Shown: piece by piece, positions 1,098-15,426 of the stretch | Layout of the letters: each line of letters opens with the position of its first letter | Position numbering within the stretch: position 1 is the stretch's first letter | From: Synechococcus sp. | GTDB taxonomy: Bacteria > Cyanobacteriota > Cyanobacteriia > PCC-6307 > Cyanobiaceae | DNA length: 42,527 nucleotides | Direction: 5' to 3' | Assembly: GCA_012270465.1 (NCBI GenBank) | Contig: JAAXIH010000219.1 | Span: forward strand, 24,341-66,867 | Notes under the pieces: generated by a model | Told to the model about the DNA's origin: nothing | What the model saw: the letters and a program-made list of their open reading frames with translations, nothing else | Database searches by the model: none | Made by a program: the position numbers and the translations under genes

Positions 1098-1273
1098 GAC
1101 TGACTTCCTTCTGAACGAATTGAATCGGACGCAATGATCCGAATGGCCAATCTTTGATCAATTAGCCAAGGGCTAAGCCTACCAACTCACTTCAATCTTC
1201 AGTCAATCTCCCGCTGCTGGTGCCTGAAAGCGCGGCGCAAGCGAGTTAAGACCGAAGCGTGGTGATCCCGTGC

Positions 1274-2788
1274 ATGGCTGATCCTCTTTTGCTGGCCCTT
1301 GATCAGGGCACCAGCAGCTCCCGCGCCGTGATCTTCGATGGCAGCGGCCAAGCCTTGGCCTCGGCTCAAGTTCCGTTGCCAATTCACTACCCAGCCGATG
1401 GCTGGGTGGAACAAGACCCCCTGGCGATTTGGAGCAGCCAGCTGCAAGCCATGCAGCAGCTGGAGGCCCAATTGAGCCCAGAGCAGCGTGCAGCTGTGGC
1501 GGCTTGCGGCATCACCAATCAGCGCGAAACCACGGTGCTGTGGCGTTCGGATGATGGCCAGCCCTGCGGACCAGCCTTGGTTTGGCAAGACCGGCGCACC
1601 GCGTCGATCTGCCGCCAGTGGCGCGATCAAGAGGGAGCTGAGAGCTGGCAGCAGCGCACCGGCCTGGTGCTCGATCCCTATTTCAGTGCCAGCAAGGTGC
1701 GGTGGCTGCTGGAGAACAACGCTGAAGCAGCTGCCGCTAAAGCGGCCGGAACCGTGCGCTTTGGCACCGTTGACAGTTGGTTGCTCTGGCAGCTGACCAG
1801 TGGTTCGGTTCATGCCACCGATCTCAGCAATGCCAGCCGCACGCTGCTGTTGGATCTCGACCGCGGCTGTTGGCTGCCGGAAGCCTGTGAGCGGGTTGGC
1901 TTAACGGAGTCGGCGTTGCCGGAGCTCAAACCCTGCCGCAGCCAATTCGGCAGCATCGCCGCAGGCCTGCCCTTTGCGGGGGTGCCGATCACAGCCCTGC
2001 TGGGGGACCAGCAGGCGGCCAGTTTTGGCCAGCTCTGCCTGGAACCTGGCCAAGCCAAATGCACCTATGGAACAGGTGCGTTTTTGGTCATCAATGTGGG
2101 CTCAACGCCTGTGCGAGCACCCGGTGGCTTGCTCAGCACCGTGGGCTGGACCGAGGCCGATGGGAGCATCACTTATTGCATTGAAGGCAGCCTCTTCAAT
2201 GCCGGCACCGTTGTGCAATGGCTGCGCGATGGCTTGGGGTTGATCCCCAGCTCAGCGGCGATCGAGGAGTTGGCTGCTTCCGTTGAAAGCGCTGGCGAGC
2301 TGATGTTGGTGCCAGCTTTCACCGGTTGGGGCACTCCCCACTGGGACCCTGAAGCCCGCGGATTGTTGATTGGCCTGACCCGCGACAGCGGACCTGGCCA
2401 CATTGCTCGGGCTGCCCTCGAGGGCATCGCTTTGGCAGTGACCACGCTCACCCAACTGGCTGAGCAGGCTTTGGGGCAGCCATTGCAAGAGCTGGCGGTT
2501 GATGGCGGCGCTGCCGCTTCCGATCTTTTGTTGCAGGCTCAAGCCGATAGCAGCGGGGTGCCGGTGCGCCGCCCTGATCAGCTCGAGAGCACGGCCTTGG
2601 GTGTGGCCCTGTTGGCTGGTTTATCGGCTGGATGCTTGAGCGACCTCAACGCCGCGCGCCAAGTGCGAGCCGCCGGCAGCCGGCGCTTTGATCCGGCCTT
2701 GAACAAGGCTGAGCGAGAACGCTGGTTGAAGCGCTGGGATAGCGCCGTTCATCGTTGTTTGGAGTGGCATGGCGATGCCCTGCGCTGA
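1274..2788 (+). CDS. glpK: Glycerol kinase
   Basis: FGGY family; LALDQGTSSSRAVIFD, GITNQRETTVLWRSDDGQP, LLGDQQAASFGQ, CTYGTGAFLVINVG; ORF opens at 1259, ATG at 1274 preferred. Confidence 0.95.
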   Translation: MADPLLLALDQGTSSSRAVIFDGSGQALASAQVPLPIHYPADGWVEQDPLAIWSSQLQAMQQLEAQLSPEQRAAVAACGITNQRETTVLWRSDDGQPCGPALVWQDRRTASICRQWRDQEGAESWQQRTGLVLDPYFSASKVRWLLENNAEAAAAKAAGTVRFGTVDSWLLWQLTSGSVHATDLSNASRTLLLDLDRGCWLPEACERVGLTESALPELKPCRSQFGSIAAGLPFAGVPITALLGDQQAASFGQLCLEPGQAKCTYGTGAFLVINVGSTPVRAPGGLLSTVGWTEADGSITYCIEGSLFNAGTVVQWLRDGLGLIPSSAAIEELAASVESAGELMLVPAFTGWGTPHWDPEARGLLIGLTRDSGPGHIARAALEGIALAVTTLTQLAEQALGQPLQELAVDGGAAASDLLLQAQADSSGVPVRRPDQLESTALGVALLAGLSAGCLSDLNAARQVRAAGSRRFDPALNKAERERWLKRWDSAVHRCLEWHGDALR

Positions 2789-4331
2789 TCTGCTGATCAT
2801 TGGCGGTGGCTCCAGTGGCGCTGCCCTGGCCTATGAGGCTGTGCGCCGCGGGCTCAAGGTCACCCTGCTGGAGGCCGAAGATCCAGCGGTGGGCACCAGC
2901 TCCCGCAGCACCAAGTTGTTGCACGGCGGTGTGCGCTACCTGGAGCTCGCCGTCAAAAAAGCGGATCCAGCCCAGTTCAAGTTGGTGCGCGAGGCCCTAG
3001 TGGAACGCGGGCACTGGATCCGCCAGGCACCCTTTTTGGCTCACACCCTCAATTTGGTGCTGCCCACCGAGGGGCTGATCGAGCGCAGCTACTACCGCCT
3101 GGGTCTTGGTTTTTATGACCTGATGGCGGGTTCGGCTGGGCTGGGGCCCACCAGCAGCCTCAATGCCGAGGGGGTGCAGCGCACGTTCCCAGGGTTGGAC
3201 CGCCGATTTAACGGCGGTGTTCGCTACAGCGATGGGCAGTTCAATGACGCGCGCTTGAACCTGCTGCTGTTGCTCACAGCAGCGCGAGCTGGCCTTGAGG
3301 TTGTGCGCGATTGCCGTGTTGTTGGTTTCGAGCGCACCGATGGACACCTCAGCGCCGCGATTAGTGAAGGTCCAGGCGGTGAGCAGCAACGCTGGCCTGC
3401 CCGCGTGATCGTTAATGCCACCGGGATCGCGGCCGATCAACTGCGTTTGCTGGCTGACCCTGATGCCGAAGCGCGGCTGCTGGTCAGCCGCGGCACCCAT
3501 CTGGTGCTCAAGAGCAACCTCTGCGCTGGTGGTGATGGCCTCTTGATTCCCCGCACCAGTGATGGCCGGGTGCTGTTTTTGCTGCCCTTTTTTGGTCGCA
3601 CGCTGCTGGGAACAACCGATATCCCCTGCCCAGCGGCGGAAGCCACCGTGGTGTCGGACCAAGAGCGCAGCTATCTGCTCGACCATCTCGCTCGCTGGTT
3701 CCCCGATGGCAGCGCTGGTGAGGTGGGCAGTGCCTGGGCGGGTGGCCGTCCTTTGATTCGAGCGGCTGGTAGCTCTGCCTCCAGTAGTCGGCTGGTGCGT
3801 GAGCACGAGGTGGAACAGCTGCCCAGTGGACTGATCAGCCTGCTTGGAGGCAAATGGACCACCTGCCGGGTGTTGGCCCTCGATGCCTTGCAACTGGTGC
3901 TGGAGCGTCTTGGTGGAGCTGAGCCGGTCGCTCAGCCTCTGCCGCTGCTCGGCAGTGCCGCCGATTGCGATCAAACCGTTCCGCAGTTGCAGGCTCTGCG
4001 GCCACGCCTGCTGGAGCAGTTGCCCGATCACGCCCAACAAGCGGCCCAGGTGGATCACCTGATTGCCAGCTATGGCTTGCGGGCGGAAGAGGTGATTCAC
4101 CACGCCCAGCAACCCGGCGAGCTGGAGCCGCTCAGTGAGGTGGTGCCCATTTGCCGCGCCGAGTGGCGCTTCAACATCGCTCAGGAGTGGGCGACAACAT
4201 CCAGTGATCTGCTCAGCCGCCGGAGCCGTTTGGCGTTATTGGATCAGCAGGAGACCGCCAGGCTCTCGTCAATGGCGTCTGAGTTGCTACTCGAATCAGG
4301 CTCCACATCGCCGATCAACCACCAGCAGTAG
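2769..4331 (+). CDS. glpD: FAD-dependent glycerol-3-phosphate dehydrogenase
   Basis: LLIIGGGSSGAALAYEAVRRGLKVTLLEAED dinucleotide fold; GTSSRSTKLLHGGVRYLE; start overlaps the glpK 3' end. Confidence 0.94.
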   Translation: MAMPCADLLIIGGGSSGAALAYEAVRRGLKVTLLEAEDPAVGTSSRSTKLLHGGVRYLELAVKKADPAQFKLVREALVERGHWIRQAPFLAHTLNLVLPTEGLIERSYYRLGLGFYDLMAGSAGLGPTSSLNAEGVQRTFPGLDRRFNGGVRYSDGQFNDARLNLLLLLTAARAGLEVVRDCRVVGFERTDGHLSAAISEGPGGEQQRWPARVIVNATGIAADQLRLLADPDAEARLLVSRGTHLVLKSNLCAGGDGLLIPRTSDGRVLFLLPFFGRTLLGTTDIPCPAAEATVVSDQERSYLLDHLARWFPDGSAGEVGSAWAGGRPLIRAAGSSASSSRLVREHEVEQLPSGLISLLGGKWTTCRVLALDALQLVLERLGGAEPVAQPLPLLGSAADCDQTVPQLQALRPRLLEQLPDHAQQAAQVDHLIASYGLRAEEVIHHAQQPGELEPLSEVVPICRAEWRFNIAQEWATTSSDLLSRRSRLALLDQQETARLSSMASELLLESGSTSPINHQQ

Positions 4332-5974
4332 TCGTAGGCCGAGAGATACACAAACCAGTGGTCGCTGGCGGCTGGGAAGGGGCATCCGCCCAGCACCTCG
4401 CGCACGAGCTGCCCTTGCCACGGTCCAAGATCCAGGCGCGTTGAGGCCGGAGTGCTGCTGAGATTCACCGCCACCAGCACCGTCATCTCCTCGGTTTGAC
4501 GGATGTAGCTGATCACGCCCGGGTGGCTGGTTTTCAGCAATTGGAAGTCGCCATGCCGCAGGGCAGGCAGCAAGCGGCGGCTGAGCAGGGTGTGGCGATG
4601 CCAGTTCAGCAGCGAGCCGTTCAAGCTTTTTTGAACGGCCACATTCACCATCTGGCAGTTGTATCCAGGTCGGGTGATGGGGGGCAGCACCAGCAGTGGA
4701 TCGGGTGCCTTGGAGAAGCCACCGTTGCGTTCGGCTGTCCAGGCCATGGGGGTGCGATTGGCATCACGGTCCCGCAGACCGGGGTAGTCCCCCATCCCCA
4801 GCTCATCGCCGTAGTAGATGCAGGGCATTCCCGGCAGGCTGTAGAGCAGCGCGTGCAGCGCTTTATTGGGGCGCGGATCACCGTTCAGCAAGGGGGAGAG
4901 CCGCCGGTTGATGCCCCAATTCAGCCAATGCCCTTCGGCATTGGGAAAGCCTTCACGAACGCGATTGACGATCTCTTCAGGCACCAGATAGCCATCGCCC
5001 AGCCAGAGTTCGTCGTGATTGCGCAGGGGCAGTGCCCAGCGGCAGCCGGGGCTCAACTCGCGAAACTGAGTCAGGAAGTCGTGCAACCCGCTGACCTCTC
5101 CGTGCGCCACCGCAGCGAACAGGTGGGCCGTCAGGGCGAAGTTGAAGGCTGAGTGCAGCTCATCGTCGGCGATGTAGGGCATCGCTTCCTGCACCGGTTG
5201 GATGGCCTCAGCCAGCAGCAGCACCTCCTCACGGCCCAACTGCTTGCAGCGCTCTGCCGCTCGGGTGCGCAGCCGGCGCAGGAACCCATGGGTTTCCGGT
5301 AACCCCTCGCAGCGGGTGCCTTCGCGCTCAAATAGGAACGGGATGGCATCAAGACGAAAACCGTCGATGCCCCGATCGATCCAAAAGTCGAGCACATCGA
5401 GCATCGCCTCTTGAACTTGCGGGTTGTCGTAGTTCAGATCCGGCTGGTGCCGCAGGAAGCGGTGCAGGTAGTACTGCCCGGCCACCGGATCCCACTGCCA
5501 ATTCGACTGCTCAAAATGGCGGAACAGCACAGGCGCGTCGCTGTAACTGCTGTCGTCGTCGCGCCAGACATAAAAGTTGCGCTCGGGTGAGTCGCGCTCA
5601 GCCCAACGCGCCCGCTGGAACCACAGGTGCATGTCACTGGTGTGGTTCAGCACCAGATCAAAGAGCACTTTCAAGCCCAGCCCATGGGCATGGGCAATCA
5701 ATGCATCGAGAGCCTGAAGATCTCCAAGGTCGGGATGCACCGCCTTGTAATCGGTGATGTCGTAACCGCCATCGCGCAGCGGCGAATCACAGATGGGCGT
5801 CATCCAGACCGCATCCACGCCAAGCCAATGGAGATAGTCCAGCCGTTGTCTGAGGCCGTCCAAATCCCCGATCCCATCGCCATTGCCATCGGCGAAGCAG
5901 CGAGGAATCAGTTCGTAGATCACCGAACCCTCCCACCATGGGGAGGTGCTCTCAGCTGCGGGGTTGCTGGCCAT
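4244..5974 (-). CDS. GH13 alpha-glucosidase/trehalose-synthase-like enzyme
   Basis: 576 aa; GH13 motifs DLVLNHTSD, GFRLDAIPF, LLLAEA, LRNHDE; closest in style to the TreS catalytic domain. Confidence 0.85.
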   Translation of the reverse strand: MASNPAAESTSPWWEGSVIYELIPRCFADGNGDGIGDLDGLRQRLDYLHWLGVDAVWMTPICDSPLRDGGYDITDYKAVHPDLGDLQALDALIAHAHGLGLKVLFDLVLNHTSDMHLWFQRARWAERDSPERNFYVWRDDDSSYSDAPVLFRHFEQSNWQWDPVAGQYYLHRFLRHQPDLNYDNPQVQEAMLDVLDFWIDRGIDGFRLDAIPFLFEREGTRCEGLPETHGFLRRLRTRAAERCKQLGREEVLLLAEAIQPVQEAMPYIADDELHSAFNFALTAHLFAAVAHGEVSGLHDFLTQFRELSPGCRWALPLRNHDELWLGDGYLVPEEIVNRVREGFPNAEGHWLNWGINRRLSPLLNGDPRPNKALHALLYSLPGMPCIYYGDELGMGDYPGLRDRDANRTPMAWTAERNGGFSKAPDPLLVLPPITRPGYNCQMVNVAVQKSLNGSLLNWHRHTLLSRRLLPALRHGDFQLLKTSHPGVISYIRQTEEMTVLVAVNLSSTPASTRLDLGPWQGQLVREVLGGCPFPAASDHWFVYLSAYDYCWWLIGDVEPDSSSNSDAIDESLAVSC

Positions 5975-6043: not shown

Positions 6044-7243
6044 TTAGGAGCCCAGTTCGTTGGCTAGCTGCTCAAACCAGGCCACATAGGCATCGGGCCC
6101 ACCCGGCACGAGCACATCGGGCTTGAGGGGATCATCGGGATCGCTCAGGCCCTTGAGTTCTGGGTGTTGCAGGCTGGGGCGATCCACCTCGCCAGCGCTG
6201 CTGTCCACCAGCACAACCCGGTTCTGGCGGCCAAACCGGTTGCCCAGCTCCTGCAGCAAGGTCAAGAAGCCCCGATCGCTGCCGCCGCGGCGCCAGCCGC
6301 CCTGGCCATCGGGCTCTGAGGTGATGGTGTCGCCCACCCCCACCAGCACCGGCATGTGTTCAACAGCGATGCTGCGCTGACAGAGCTCCAGCAGCTCGGT
6401 GTGACCGGTTGGGGCACTGCGGGCGTTGAAATGTTCACCAAGGGGGGCGTTGCCGGTGCGCCTGGCGATGTGGTCGTTGATCAGGGCCAACAGGCCCGCC
6501 TCCTTCACCGCACCCCGCAGCATGAACTGAACATCTGTGGTGCCGACATTGCCTGGTGCGGCTGGCTTGGGGAGTTCCACCCCATCGCTGCTGCCCAGGT
6601 TGGGGGCCAGGTGCAGGAAAAAGCAGCCGCGCTGGTCGCCTGCTTCAGCCTCGGCCAAAAGGTTTTGCATCAGGGCCAGGCTGCGCTGCTGCAGCTGCTG
6701 TTGGCGCTCAACATCCCCCGATAGCTGGCTGAACAGGGCATTGAGATTGATGGTGGGGCTCAGCGGGTTGGCCAGGATCGTGCGTTGGAATAGCGCGTCC
6801 CGCTCCTGGTCTGTCAGCTCCGGCAGCAGGGGTGTCAGCTGCTGGTTGAGGCCCTCCAAAATCTTGGCTGGAAGGGCGTCCAAGGTGGCCAGCTCAGCGT
6901 CGCTGATGCCGGGATAGGTGATTTGGCCAAAGCGGTCTTGCCACTGCACCCCCCCGGCGGCCAATCCGGGCAGGTAGAGCCCCTCTTCGGCTGGGTTCGC
7001 AGTACCGGCGAGTGCCCTTTCCACCAGGGGGTTCACCCCGCGAAGACCGGCGTGCTCGCCATTGGTGAGCACGCAAAAACGGCCTTGCAGCGTTGCGGCT
7101 GCTCGGATGTAGGGCGCTGGCATCACCCTGGTGAGGGGATCGAGCACCAGCGGCATGCAAACCCCATCGAGGTCTTGCACCATCAGCCAGTCCGGCTGGT
7201 GCCGCAGTTCTTCCTGCAGGGCCTCGAGGCTCAGGTTGGCCAT
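6044..7243 (-). CDS. stpA: Glucosylglycerol 3-phosphatase
   Basis: 399 aa; WLMVQDLDGVCMPLVLDPLTRVM, VLTNGEHAG; StpA/GgpP-like; encoded beside ggt/ggpS genes. Confidence 0.88.
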   Translation of the reverse strand: MANLSLEALQEELRHQPDWLMVQDLDGVCMPLVLDPLTRVMPAPYIRAAATLQGRFCVLTNGEHAGLRGVNPLVERALAGTANPAEEGLYLPGLAAGGVQWQDRFGQITYPGISDAELATLDALPAKILEGLNQQLTPLLPELTDQERDALFQRTILANPLSPTINLNALFSQLSGDVERQQQLQQRSLALMQNLLAEAEAGDQRGCFFLHLAPNLGSSDGVELPKPAAPGNVGTTDVQFMLRGAVKEAGLLALINDHIARRTGNAPLGEHFNARSAPTGHTELLELCQRSIAVEHMPVLVGVGDTITSEPDGQGGWRRGGSDRGFLTLLQELGNRFGRQNRVVLVDSSAGEVDRPSLQHPELKGLSDPDDPLKPDVLVPGGPDAYVAWFEQLANELGS

Positions 7244-7315
7244 GGACGGACGCTGGCAAGGAGATCAACGAGGATGCTTTCACGGATCTGCTCGGTCAAG
7301 GCCTGAGCAGGCCGC

Positions 7316-8848
7316 TTGAACGGTTGTAGGTGCGTTTTGCAGAACGGCTTTTTTGAATCCAATCTCGATCCCAGTCGCATCCGCGATCGCTTGCTGGAGC
7401 TCGAGAACGGCAAGGTTGGCTTCTACAGCGTGGGGCTGTACCCCATTTCATTGGCCTACAACTGCGCCATGCAGACAGCGGATCCTCAGCTGCTGCTGGC
7501 ACCGCGACCTGGCCGCTCTCTTTTGGGGGCTTTCCCAAAAAACGACATTGCCGGCATGGATCCGGACCATTTGGCGACCGTTGAGGCCATGGGATCCCAC
7601 TTGGAGGGCTCGGAGCGGGTTCCGAACACCCTTGAGGACCTGATTCGGCGCTGTGAGCTGGTTGTGATCAGCTCGAACAGCAACCACGTCGAAGACGATT
7701 TGCAGGAAGCCATCGCCACGCGCGAGGCCCTGCAGCGGGAGCATGTGGTGCTGGCCTGTTTAGCGGGATCCTTCACCCACGATCCGATCGCCAATGAGGC
7801 CTATGTGCTCTGCGATAAGGCTCCCAACCTGGCCTTCTTTTCCGGCTTCCATCGCCACGGCGCCCTGCGCAACCCGCTCGACAGCTTCACTGCGAACTTC
7901 TGCCATCCCGATGCGCTTTCCGCACTCCTGGGCGCGCGGATGCTCGATCGCCTCTCCCCGAATATTCAGGTGTCACCGGGGGTGCACAACATCGAGGGGC
8001 AATACATCAAGGCCGCCAAAAACATGGCCTCGATCTTTGCGGGTTTTGGCTACACCTTCCATTCCGAAAACCCCGGTGTTCTGCCCACCCTGCTGACGCT
8101 GTTGCTGGAGCAGTGTCTTGATCAGGCCGCCACGGTCTCCATCTCACGGCGCGATCGTCAGCGCCTCTACCACCGGCAGGCCATCGCCCTCACGGAGCTG
8201 GGTTACGGCGTTCAGCGCATTGAAGCGGCTTTGGTGCGCGATGGGGATATGGAAAAGGTGCGCGACCACACGTTTTCCCAGCTCACCGCGATGGTGGCTG
8301 ATGTGCGCGGCAGCATGATGCCGCCCACGGTGGGCAGCCCCACCCGCAACTTTCAAGCCGGGGTGCAGCTCGCTCTCCAGATGCGCAAGCTGGGCCGCTG
8401 CCCCAACGGCATCGATGAGCTTGAGCAGTGGTGTGAAGAGGCTGGAATCGCCAAAGGTGGCCTGGAAGGCCTGCGTTCCCTGCGTTACTGGCCCCAGATC
8501 GTGCGTCAGTACGGCATTGCTCTGCACGATGCCTCGCTGATCAACCTGCTTTACATGGCTGTCTTCGGCCGCCAGGCCTCGAAGGAATCAGCCTTTGAGG
8601 TGATGACGCAAAGCCGCGAGCTCAGCAACTACTGCCAGGAATCGGTGCGCCCCACCCACAGCCGGCGCTACGCCGAGGCGCTGCAAAACCTCGATAACCC
8701 CGCTGCCATGGATTTGGTGGTGAGTGCCGTGGTGGCGGCCCTGGCCAGGCGCTCAAAAGATGACGGCAGTTTTGTCGACGATGCCAGCGACGACGACGAC
8801 ATGCCCGCCTACCTCAAGGCGATGAATGTGATTGAAACGGTGTGGTGA
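7316..8848 (+). CDS. Divergent GpsA-like (NAD(P)-dependent glycerol-3-phosphate dehydrogenase-like) protein, unassigned function
   Basis: 510 aa ORF with no upstream in-frame ATG/GTG (TTG at 7316 or 7337); VHNIEGQYIKAAKNMASIFAGFGYTFHSENPGVLPTLLTLLLEQ resembles the GpsA GVE-KN-AIaaG-G-N segment. Confidence 0.7.
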   Translation: MNGCRCVLQNGFFESNLDPSRIRDRLLELENGKVGFYSVGLYPISLAYNCAMQTADPQLLLAPRPGRSLLGAFPKNDIAGMDPDHLATVEAMGSHLEGSERVPNTLEDLIRRCELVVISSNSNHVEDDLQEAIATREALQREHVVLACLAGSFTHDPIANEAYVLCDKAPNLAFFSGFHRHGALRNPLDSFTANFCHPDALSALLGARMLDRLSPNIQVSPGVHNIEGQYIKAAKNMASIFAGFGYTFHSENPGVLPTLLTLLLEQCLDQAATVSISRRDRQRLYHRQAIALTELGYGVQRIEAALVRDGDMEKVRDHTFSQLTAMVADVRGSMMPPTVGSPTRNFQAGVQLALQMRKLGRCPNGIDELEQWCEEAGIAKGGLEGLRSLRYWPQIVRQYGIALHDASLINLLYMAVFGRQASKESAFEVMTQSRELSNYCQESVRPTHSRRYAEALQNLDNPAAMDLVVSAVVAALARRSKDDGSFVDDASDDDDMPAYLKAMNVIETVW

Positions 8849-9904
8849 TTACGAGAGCTCGATCCGTTCACCCGATCGGGCATCGAAGTTGAGCGCGTCG
8901 ACTCGGCTCCATTGCACCTCCACTTGGGCTCCGGGTTGCAGCCCTGCGGCCAGCGAATCGCTGCTGGGGCGCATCACTTTGAGCGGGCCATCAGCACTGC
9001 TGAGATGCAGCAACACCCGATCGCCCAGCCACTCGCGGGTGGTGAGCTGGGCGCTGAGGCTGGCTTCCATTGCGGTTGGAGCAGCGCCCGGTGAGGCCAG
9101 GCGTAGTTGTTCTGGCCGTAAACCAATCAGCTGGCCAGGCCGCAGCGACAACAGATTGATCGATGGATTGCCGAGGAAGCCCGCCACAAAACTGTTGGCT
9201 GGCCGGCGGTAGAGCTCCTCGGCGCTGCCCACCTGCTGCAGCTGCCCCCGCTCCAGCACAGCGATGCGATCAGCCAAGCCCATGGCTTCGTGTTGATCGT
9301 GGGTCACGTAGATCACCGGTGCACCGATGCTGCGCAGGATGTGCTGCAGCTCGGCGCGGAGCTCCTCGCGCAGCTTGGCGTCGAGGTTGCTCATCGGTTC
9401 ATCCAGCAGCATCAAGCGCGGCCGGCGCAAGAGGGCGCGCCCGAGGGCCACGCGCTGCCTCTGGCCTCCCGAGAGCCCAGCGGGTTTGCGGTGGCGCAAG
9501 TCTTGAAGCTGCAGCAAATCGAGTACCCGGTTGATGTCCTCTTTCATCAGCTCCGGGCGCGTGCCCCGCAGTTCCGGGCCGAGGCTGAGGTTGCGCTCCA
9601 CGCTGAGGTGGGGATAGAGCGCATAGCTCTGGAACACCAGGGCAACCCCGCGATCAGCTGGTGGGGTTGTGGTGATGTCGTCATCGCCGAGCAAGATCTG
9701 CCCACTGCTGGCTGGATCAAGCCCCGCCAGCAGCCGCAAGGTGGTGCTCTTGCCGCAGCCACTGGGTCCCAACAGGGCCAGGATTTCCCCTGGTTGAACG
9801 GTGAGGCTGAGCGAATCGAGCAGCTGTTGGCGCCCAACGCGACGCCCCAGCTGTTGCAGTTTCAGGGCGCCATGGGCGCTGTTGGGGTTGGAAGTTGCGG
9901 TCAT
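8849..9904 (-). CDS. ggtA: ABC transporter ATP-binding protein, glucosylglycerol uptake
   Basis: Walker [25 protein letters not shown], Walker B LMLLDEP; MalK-like C-terminal domain; linked to ggtBCD and ggpS. Confidence 0.85.
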   Translation of the reverse strand: MTATSNPNSAHGALKLQQLGRRVGRQQLLDSLSLTVQPGEILALLGPSGCGKSTTLRLLAGLDPASSGQILLGDDDITTTPPADRGVALVFQSYALYPHLSVERNLSLGPELRGTRPELMKEDINRVLDLLQLQDLRHRKPAGLSGGQRQRVALGRALLRRPRLMLLDEPMSNLDAKLREELRAELQHILRSIGAPVIYVTHDQHEAMGLADRIAVLERGQLQQVGSAEELYRRPANSFVAGFLGNPSINLLSLRPGQLIGLRPEQLRLASPGAAPTAMEASLSAQLTTREWLGDRVLLHLSSADGPLKVMRPSSDSLAAGLQPGAQVEVQWSRVDALNFDARSGERIELS

Positions 9905-12827: not shown

Positions 12828-14294
12828 CTAATGCTCGAGCGCGTCGAGCTGCTCACTGGCCCAGTTGGCCACGCTCAAGGTGTCCACGGCACGTTCCATG
12901 CGTTCCATCCGCGCGCGCTGCTCCTCTATGGGCATCATCAGGGCGGCGTCGATGGCTTCGTCCATACGCCGGTGCGAGTAGGGGTTGGTGAGGATCGCGC
13001 CATCAACAACCACCGAAGCACCGGTGAATTCCGAGAGCACCAGGCTGCCGCCTTGGCCCTTGCGGGCCGCCACATATTCCTTGGCCACGAGATTCAAGCC
13101 ATCCCGCAGTGGCGTGATCCAGCAGATGTCGGAGGCGGCAAACCACGCCACGATCTCTTCGTAGGGGATGCGCTGGGTGGTGAGTCGAATCGGAACCCAA
13201 TCGATCCGGCCGAAGCGGCCGTTGATCCGCCCCACGGTTTCTTCAATGCTGCGTTGGGTGTCTTCGTAGACCTTCATGCCGGTGTTGGCCGCCACGCAGG
13301 CCAGCATCAGCACCACATCGCCATGCATCTCAGGGCGCCGTTCGAGCAGGCGCTCGTAGGCCAGCAGCAGCTCTTCATTGCCTTTGGTGTAATCCACCCG
13401 GCTGGCGGAAATGATCAACTTGCGGCCTTTTTTGGTGTCCCGCTCGATGTCTTTGATCAGGTCCTGAACCGGGTCTGAGTCCCGTAGGGCTTGGATCACC
13501 TCAGGACTGGTGCCCACTGGCGTGGAAACCAAACGCACGGTGCGGCCTTCGTAGCGGAGCCAGCGGGTGCAGTCGGGCTGGGCGAGCGCGCTGCCGTGGC
13601 GCAGGAAGTGGTCTGAGACCTGCTCGCGGGGGCCCCGCTCGACCGCCAACAGGCTGGAGGCGGCACGGCTGAAGTTTTCGGCGTAACGGGGGATATGAAA
13701 ACCGACTACATCACAGGCCAGCAGGCTGCCAATGATTTCTTCTCGCCAAGGAAGGATGCCGAATACATCGGCACTGGGGAATGGCGTGTGGTGGAAAAAG
13801 CCCACCTTCACATCAGGCCGTTGCTGGCGGATGTAGCCCGGGGCTAGCCAAAGGTTGTAATCGTGAACCCAGATGCAGGCACCGGGCGCGGCTTCATTGC
13901 AAGCGGCTTCGGCAAAGCGCCGATTCACTTCCTGGAATGTGGCCCAGTCGGCGTTATTGACGTTGAAGTGGCTTGGAAAGGTGTGCAGGATCGGCCAGGC
14001 CGATTCCTTCGAGGTCACGTGATAGAAGCTTGAGATCTGCTCCTGTTGCAGCGGAATCCGGCGCAGCCTGATGGGAAGAGGCTCCTCGATGACCGTGGTC
14101 TCATCGGCGCCATTGCTGTCTTCGTCTTGGCGCCAAGCAATCCAGGTGCCCGAAGGGTGATCCCGAAACAGATTGCGCAGGGTCGGGATGATGCCGTTGG
14201 GGCTTTTTTGGTCCTGCCAGCTGCGGTTCCCGTCCGCGTCGATCACCTCATCAAAGGGTGAGCGGTGGTAAACGAGAACGAACGAGCTCGGCAC
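12828..14294 (-). CDS. ggpS: Glucosylglycerol-phosphate synthase (GT20)
   Basis: GT20/OtsA-like: WIWVHDYNLWLAPGYIRQQRP-type motif (ACIWVHDYNLWLAPGYIRQQRPDVKVGFFHHTPFPS), DGLNLVAKEYVAAR; start ambiguous, GTG at 14294 (MPSSFVLVYHRSPFDE), ORF open to 14366. Confidence 0.9.
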   Translation of the reverse strand: MPSSFVLVYHRSPFDEVIDADGNRSWQDQKSPNGIIPTLRNLFRDHPSGTWIAWRQDEDSNGADETTVIEEPLPIRLRRIPLQQEQISSFYHVTSKESAWPILHTFPSHFNVNNADWATFQEVNRRFAEAACNEAAPGACIWVHDYNLWLAPGYIRQQRPDVKVGFFHHTPFPSADVFGILPWREEIIGSLLACDVVGFHIPRYAENFSRAASSLLAVERGPREQVSDHFLRHGSALAQPDCTRWLRYEGRTVRLVSTPVGTSPEVIQALRDSDPVQDLIKDIERDTKKGRKLIISASRVDYTKGNEELLLAYERLLERRPEMHGDVVLMLACVAANTGMKVYEDTQRSIEETVGRINGRFGRIDWVPIRLTTQRIPYEEIVAWFAASDICWITPLRDGLNLVAKEYVAARKGQGGSLVLSEFTGASVVVDGAILTNPYSHRRMDEAIDAALMMPIEEQRARMERMERAVDTLSVANWASEQLDALEH

Positions 14295-14484
14295 GCAGGC
14301 AGGTTGTAAACGGCGGATATGGAGGAACTTCGCGACCCCAACGCAAAACGCTGGGGAATGAACCAAACCTCGATCCGTACACCATCGACCCGCAGCCTGG
14401 TCGCTGTCAAACCCTGGTTTTGGTCAAAGCGGTAACCGCAGCGGCGTTACCACTTGAATATCCTTTACAAAAAGAAAGAAACCC

Positions 14485-15426
14485 ATGGCCCTCGACCTGG
14501 CCGGCCTCTATCAACGCCTCCAGGCTGAACAACGCCCGGTGCTTCCTAGCGGTGAGCATCGCGCTGTTGTTGGTTGCGGCTATGTGGGCCGCCGTTTGGT
14601 CAGTGGTTGGAGCGATGACGGCCACACCGTGACGGCCACCACCCGCCGTGATTCACGCCTACATCAACTGCGCTCCCAGGTTGATCAAGCCGTTCTGTTC
14701 GATTCAGAAGCCACCAGCAACGACTTGTCGTTTGTCAGCGACGTTGATGTGTTGGTGGTCTCGCTGGCTCCAACCGGCCAACAGCACGTGTGCGTTGAGG
14801 CCTACGAATCGGTGTACAGCCGCGGCATTGAAATGCTGTGCGAGGGCATTGCCAACCGCAACTCCACTCGGCCGCTGCAAATCATTCACCTGAGTAGCTG
14901 TGGGCTCTACGGCAATCGCAATGGCGCTCTCACCTCAGAGCAGATGGGCCTTGATCTCAACCATCCGGTGAATGCCCTGCTCGCTGGCGCTGAGCAGCAG
15001 ATCCAATCCCTGCGTGGTGAAGCGGTCAATGTCTGCACCCTGCGCCTTGGTGGTATTTACGGTCCGGATCGCGAGATTCCCGAATGGCTTGTTGCTGCTG
15101 CTGGCCAGTGCGTTGAGCGCAATGGCGACCACGTGCCTTGCTGGGTCCACGTCGACGACGTGGTTCAAGCGGTGAACCTGGCGGCTGAGCAAAAGCTCAA
15201 CACCACCTTGAATGTTGTCGACGACATCAAGCTGTCCAAACGCGCCATCACCGATCAGCTGTGTGAAGCCATCGGTTGTGCTCCGGTGATTTGGATGGGC
15301 TCCACTCAAGACGACCGCATCTTGCATGCCGCTGTCTCCAATCAGTCGCTCAAAGACTTGGGCTTCGAACTGCAGCACCCCTCGATGTTGCAGTGGTACC
15401 TCAAGCTCCGCGCCGCTTCGGTTTGA
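14485..15426 (+). CDS. NAD-dependent epimerase/dehydratase (SDR) family protein
   Basis: 313 aa; VVGCGYVGRRLVSGWSDDGHTVTATTRR Rossmann motif; IIHLSSCGLYG. Confidence 0.82.
   Translation: MALDLAGLYQRLQAEQRPVLPSGEHRAVVGCGYVGRRLVSGWSDDGHTVTATTRRDSRLHQLRSQVDQAVLFDSEATSNDLSFVSDVDVLVVSLAPTGQQHVCVEAYESVYSRGIEMLCEGIANRNSTRPLQIIHLSSCGLYGNRNGALTSEQMGLDLNHPVNALLAGAEQQIQSLRGEAVNVCTLRLGGIYGPDREIPEWLVAAAGQCVERNGDHVPCWVHVDDVVQAVNLAAEQKLNTTLNVVDDIKLSKRAITDQLCEAIGCAPVIWMGSTQDDRILHAAVSNQSLKDLGFELQHPSMLQWYLKLRAASV

Follow-up and report, generated by a model that had tools for sequence, protein, structure and literature searches.

The question raised by this locus

Bacterial glycerolipids (membrane lipids) are built on a backbone of sn-glycerol-3-phosphate (G3P). 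In the 42,527-nucleotide stretch of Synechococcus DNA analyzed here (the window), G3P is also consumed by a glucosylglycerol (GG) gene cluster, through the glucosylglycerol-phosphate synthase gene ggpS (12828..14366, − strand; TIGR02398, 750.5 bits). A protein encoded within this cluster, which we call X510, had been described from the DNA as a divergent GpsA-like enzyme and a candidate dedicated G3P supplier for GgpS (the original prediction). The locus thus raises the questions of whether X510 is a G3P dehydrogenase (GPDH) and which pathway it would feed.

X510 is a conserved protein that almost surely starts at a downstream TTG

The open reading frame (ORF) occupies positions 7316-8848 of the + strand (510 codons, the first of them TTG) and lies between stpA (6044-7243, −), to which it is divergent, and ggtA (8849-9904, −), to which it is convergent, as originally described. 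No in-frame ATG or GTG precedes the conserved region (the earliest GTG is codon 39 and the earliest ATG codon 52), and initiation at a TTG had been suggested. We agree with TTG initiation but not with position 7316, because almost every homologue whose 5' end is intact has an ATG at or beside the position aligned with another TTG, at 7337 (codon 8). The true start, as judged from this alignment, is almost surely TTG 7337, and the protein therefore has 503 aa (7337..8848, + strand). The in-frame codons upstream, beginning with TTG 7316 (7316..7336, +), are unconserved among homologues and probably untranslated. Importantly, X510 is encoded in 74 of 151 Cyanobiaceae genomes with 50-97% identity (decayed in one of the 74), so this is a real and conserved ORF, far beyond a chance one.

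The nearest named relative, Synechococcus RCC307, has a 97% identical X510 in an identical gene order. Elsewhere in the phylum the gene is scarce: a sample of 291 genomes contained it in 34, all but one of them Cyanobiaceae. A wider scan detected homologues in Leptolyngbya, Acaryochloris, Xenococcus, Hyella, Lyngbya, and Zarconia, which we take to be mostly marine genera. Because the Prochlorococcus branches of the X510 gene tree are long, its root is unsure and we do not infer a direction of transfer.

Scanning 52 family members produced no Pfam or NCBIfam match above cut-off. The curated cut-offs of PF01210 and PF07479 were not reached by any member, and 2 of the 52 matched PF07479 (the GPDH C-terminus) weakly, with a best E of 0.0087. 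Sequence comparison with PHROGs and the PDB gave no useful match, nothing in the phage and plasmid collections matched, and a sortase match (E 1.1) and a HAD match (E 0.045) were dismissed as chance. Profile comparison of X510 with GpsA by hhalign placed the two in the correct register at E 0.12-0.17, which is non-significant even with PDB chains added. Homology between X510 and GpsA is not demonstrated by sequence alone.

X510 is predicted to adopt the GPDH fold

We analyzed AlphaFold (AF2) models of 2 family members that are only 45-46% identical to each other: the X510 of the window (pLDDT 86.6, pTM 0.86) and that of a 1.7-Mb Prochlorococcus-like genome (pLDDT 86.4, pTM 0.87). The modelled fold comprises a Rossmann domain, a 6PGDH-like domain with 2 long helices, and an added helical C-terminal region, in this order. 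When searched against the PDB with Foldseek, the best 17 matches of the window model (E 1e-8 to 1.2e-6) and the best 15 matches of the second model (E 1e-9 to 1e-7) were all GPDHs, and the next class was P5C reductase, from E 7e-5 and 2.6e-5, respectively. Among the matches listed, those better than about 1e-5 were GPDHs only with both models. Query TM-scores were 0.43-0.50 for GPDHs versus about 0.25-0.32 for other 6PGDH-like folds. The 2 models and the structural search thus assign X510 the overall GPDH fold, and the GpsA-likeness originally proposed holds at fold level in 2 independent models.

GpsA/GPD1 (EC 1.1.1.94 / 1.1.1.8; PF01210 and PF07479) is therefore the best and nearly exclusive fold match, and X510 has in common with it the Rossmann domain and the long-helix C-terminal domain. 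X510 was also said to be much longer than GpsA, and it is: unlike GpsA/GPD1 (about 305 aa; about 301-316 aa for canonical GpsA of the same cyanobacterial family), it has additional C-terminal helices of about 100 residues in total. P5C reductase, ketopantoate reductase, and 3-hydroxyisobutyrate dehydrogenase share the 6PGDH-like superfamily fold, but the Foldseek E values of P5C reductase and other such folds are orders of magnitude weaker than those of GPDHs. An identity as opine or staphylopine dehydrogenase was not supported, as none was among the best 50 matches listed in either PDB structural search. A long GPDH from a salt and osmolyte setting, DsGPDH of Dunaliella salina (6iuy), was matched in both fold searches. 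Unlike X510, this enzyme has a canonical GPDH sequence that the GpsA profile finds, and it is not a close relative. Its extra part is another domain.

Most GPDH active-site positions are invariant in X510, but one catalytic lysine is lost

The conserved side chains of GPDH are Q295, R269, N270, N205, T264, K204, D260, and K120 (PMC12874384). We mapped these positions onto X510 by alignment, not by superposition, and assessed invariance in 45-52 X510 homologues. Six of the 8 fall on invariant residues in the motif alignment: K228, N229, D322, S326, R337, and N338. The K-A-A-K-N segment (codons 225-229, 8009..8023, +) contains invariant K225, K228 (human K204), and N229 (N205), and hhalign aligns its KN with the K-N pair of GpsA (E 0.12, non-significant), so that the GpsA-like catalytic segment noticed originally is real. 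Codons 322-338 (8300..8350, +) contain invariant D322 (D260), S326 (T264), and R337-N338 (R269-N270). X510 thus has both the phosphate-binding R269-N270 pair and the supporting N205, T264, and D260 in this alignment. The R337-N338 pair is followed by F339-x2-G342, comparable to RN-Y-x2-G of GpsA, and an invariant E377-G378 (8465..8470, +) matches the GpsA V-E-G motif.

Other positions deviate. The N-terminal nucleotide-binding region is non-canonical, as had been noted: after a modelled β strand (27-30), the Rossmann turn S-V-G-L-Y-P (codons 31-36, 7427..7444, +) replaces GxGxxG, giving the motif S31-x-G33-x-x-P36, in which S31 and G33 are invariant and P36 is at least 90% conserved among the 45-52 homologues. 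R57 and R60, which follow the second Rossmann strand, are invariant and may, speculatively, favour NADPH. The SGP motif appears as SGF-HRH, the Q295 equivalent could not be placed by sequence, and the position of human Lys120 (Lys78 of cyanobacterial GpsA) is occupied in the hhalign register by an Ala in the X510 of the window (codon 143, 7763..7765, +) and by Ala, Val, or Ser across the family. The original prediction had named structure prediction as its check, with a Rossmann fold and the GpsA catalytic Lys as the features expected. The Rossmann and 6PGDH-like fold and the K204 equivalent (the invariant K228) were found, but of the catalytic pair formed by human K120 and K204 the former is lost. 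Going by these alignments, X510 retains the phosphate site and one Lys for carbonyl binding but has lost the second Lys. Because the K120A mutation costs human GPDH 5.3 kcal/mol (PMC12874384) and the equivalent residue is Ala or Val, another residue would have to take over in X510 if it is a true DHAP reductase. K225 and H172-R173-H174 are invariant in the family, and we speculate that either could stand in for the missing Lys.

A paralogue that has lost catalysis or become regulatory, sensing dinucleotides to tune the glucosylglycerol or glycerolipid pathway, would also fit the degenerate Rossmann motif, the missing Lys, and the fact that X510 and stpA are closely linked in many genomes. We consider this improbable, because proteins with as little as about 45% identity still share 6 invariant positions for catalysis or phosphate binding, a constancy that would be unusual in an inactive enzyme, and because streamlined Prochlorococcus with neither GgpS nor another known G3P source retain the gene.

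X510 accompanies StpA but is not restricted to glucosylglycerol producers

In the window, the starts of X510 and stpA (stpA/ggpP, glucosylglycerol-3-phosphatase; TIGR02399, 506.9 bits, PF09506) are 93 bp apart. On the other side, the stop codon of X510 is adjacent to that of the ggtA-like ABC ATPase gene (PF00005, TOBE_2). Upstream lie glpK (glycerol kinase, 1259..2788, +; NF000756 above cut-off and TIGR01311 just below) and a glpD/glpA-like gene for an FAD-dependent G3P dehydrogenase (2769..4331, +; NF008899 E 2e-79, PF16901). Between glpD and stpA, a GH13 protein (4244-5974) resembles the N-terminal part of TreS (TIGR02456, 595 bits, below the cut-off of 678), and an NAD-binding epimerase/SDR-like protein (14485-15426) is encoded divergently to ggpS. 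According to a review, marine Synechococcus lack gghA (PMC6753628).

stpA is adjacent and divergent to X510 in 29 of the 35 loci examined, Prochlorococcus among them; in Cyanobium-type SC5.2 and filamentous strains X510 lies amid unrelated genes. In most Prochlorococcus/SC5.1 loci, an ArsS arsenosugar radical SAM gene (TIGR04167) adjoins stpA or lies close to it, in the same orientation (for example, L044 4954-5892 and L047 5511-6443). Downstream of X510, directly or about 4 kb away, most SC5.1/Prochlorococcus loci also encode an APH-family kinase (PF01636; for example, L039 9376-10524).

StpA was present in all 34 X510-positive genomes of the phylum sample, many of them without GgpS, and above cut-off in 23 of 26 further X510-positive genomes tested. 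Prochlorococcus-like genomes without GgpS encode a complete StpA that scores above the TIGR02399 cut-off (L047 6484-7728 and L044 5951-7207). We rejected a strict dependence of X510 on StpA, because SynAce01 (G083; L059 7615-9123) has X510, GpsA, and GlpK with StpA undetected and because filamentous strains carry the gene among unrelated neighbors. In one genome (G069; L051 about 7000-7900) X510 is fragmented, StpA is also in pieces, and GpsA is intact, a joint decay of X510 and StpA where GpsA is kept.

X510 is not restricted to GgpS genomes: many Prochlorococcus-like genomes have X510 and no GgpS. Strict dedication to GG is rejected by these GG-less Prochlorococcus, and conversely about 20 GG-type genomes encode StpA and GgpS and lack X510, so GG synthesis in itself does not depend on the protein. 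Because X510 persists without GgpS, the role of dedicated G3P supplier for GgpS, as first formulated, is too narrow. It may hold where GpsA is kept, that is, in the RCC307 group, SC5.2, and the filamentous strains.

The company of StpA even in genomes without GgpS could instead indicate a GPDH-fold dehydrogenase acting on another phosphorylated keto or polyol substrate, possibly linked to StpA, with G3P coming from yet another enzyme. The loss of the Lys120 equivalent, the change from SGP to SGF-HRH, and the large C-terminal addition are in line with such an activity. Nevertheless, we regard it as rather unlikely: the invariant equivalents of the R-N pair, D260, K204-N205, and T/S264 fit a small phosphorylated substrate, SynAce01 has X510 without StpA, and a second, as yet unrecognized, enzyme would be required for G3P.

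Genomes without known G3P-forming enzymes retain X510

We analyzed the presence of X510 and GpsA in 94 Cyanobiaceae genomes that are at least 90% complete. Both were found in 15 genomes, X510 alone in 38, GpsA alone in 39, and neither in 2, which are drafts that both carry GlpK. The contrast between X510 and GpsA gives a Fisher p of 1e-11, a value that ignores phylogeny and treats non-independent genomes as independent. This contrast is confounded by the marine/freshwater divide and by ancestry: the gpsA-less set may trace to one gpsA loss in the SC5.1/Prochlorococcus ancestor, and StpA tracks X510 nearly as well as the absence of gpsA does.

In 18 Prochlorococcus-like genomes, at least 99% complete, X510 and PlsY (which consumes G3P) are always present and GpsA, GlpK, and GlpD always absent; another 20 gpsA-less genomes with X510 also have GlpK. 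In these 18 gpsA-less genomes X510 is accompanied by no other known G3P-forming enzyme. The GpsA profile at E<=10 had no full-length match in the complete X510-positive Prochlorococcus/SC5.1-type genomes tested. For one of the 18 (G078, 1.69 Mb), which has X510 and stpA, a whole-genome hmmsearch --max detected no GpsA-like ORF (best E 0.021 over 44 residues), and GlpK and GlpD were absent from the whole-genome HMM search. The assembly of the window is 82% complete and GpsA was not found there, but because RCC307 (G024) has GpsA, the organism of the window probably has it too.

These patterns are in line with published surveys. EC 1.1.1.94 was one of the central enzymes found unannotated in Prochlorococcus, and it was likewise unannotated in WH7803, in the survey by Beck et al. 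2012 (PMC3369817). Cabello-Yeves et al. 2022 described gpsA in freshwater strains, FAD-type glpA plus glycerol kinase in marine strains, and both types in brackish SC5.2 (PMC9361551). In the part of the literature that we covered, we found no published proposal for what replaces G3P dehydrogenase in Prochlorococcus.

The GlpK plus GlpD/GlpA route (EC 1.1.5.3), which supplies or consumes G3P in marine picocyanobacteria and is encoded within the cluster of the window, involves folds unrelated to X510. Moreover, GlpD runs from G3P to DHAP, and both GlpK and GlpD are missing from the 18 complete genomes that retain X510. Alternatively, gpsA-less genomes could obtain G3P through a reverse GldA-like Fe-ADH and an unrecognized kinase, or by G3P uptake, leaving X510 only an osmolyte-related role. 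In most of the 18 genomes AroB is not the only PF13685 protein; the second one is GldA-like in the 2 genomes that were examined, and the APH-like kinase downstream of X510 in many SC5.1/Prochlorococcus loci might provide the kinase. As a universal route this was rejected, because the complete genomes G039 and G078 have a single PF13685 match each, that of G078 being AroB; G078 has no GldA-like alcohol dehydrogenase. GlpK is absent in 18 of 18 genomes, and an autotroph is unlikely to import G3P for all its lipid. We therefore judge this explanation very improbable. Because GpsA, GlpK, and GlpD are all absent from these Prochlorococcus-like genomes, a general G3P source is the more likely role of X510 in them.

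Proposed function of X510

Altogether, we consider it reasonably probable that X510 is a highly divergent NAD(P)H-dependent GPDH that, depending on the lineage, supplements G3P for GG or has displaced GpsA. We infer its reaction, cofactor, physiological role, and Lys120 substitution from the fold, the residues, and the absence of alternatives. X510 would reduce dihydroxyacetone phosphate to G3P with NAD(P)H. As in GPDH, R337-N338 would bind the substrate phosphate and K228 would polarize the carbonyl, with N229 and S326 holding this Lys in place. Another residue would have to stand in for the second Lys, and the invariant K225 or H172-R173-H174 are candidates.

In genomes that keep GpsA (the group of the window, SC5.2, and the marine filamentous strains), X510 probably gives extra G3P for glucosylglycerol; there it would travel with the GG/salt module and could decay with it. 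In SC5.1 Synechococcus and Prochlorococcus, X510 would have displaced GpsA and would feed glycerolipid synthesis through PlsY. Where GpsA is lost, the gene would stay even after the loss of GgpS, a pattern predicted by displacement. With slightly less confidence, yet still leaning towards it, we propose that this GPDH-fold protein, which lacks the second Lys and displaced GpsA, is the sole G3P-forming enzyme of GlpK-less Prochlorococcus and the main one of SC5.1.

X510 is thus the best candidate for G3P synthesis in Prochlorococcus and relatives without the known enzymes. If active, it would be a GPDH working without a lysine thought to be central to catalysis. If the proposal is true, metabolic models would gain a gene for the G3P step, and one testable protein would complete the lipid and osmolyte metabolism of very abundant marine phototrophs.
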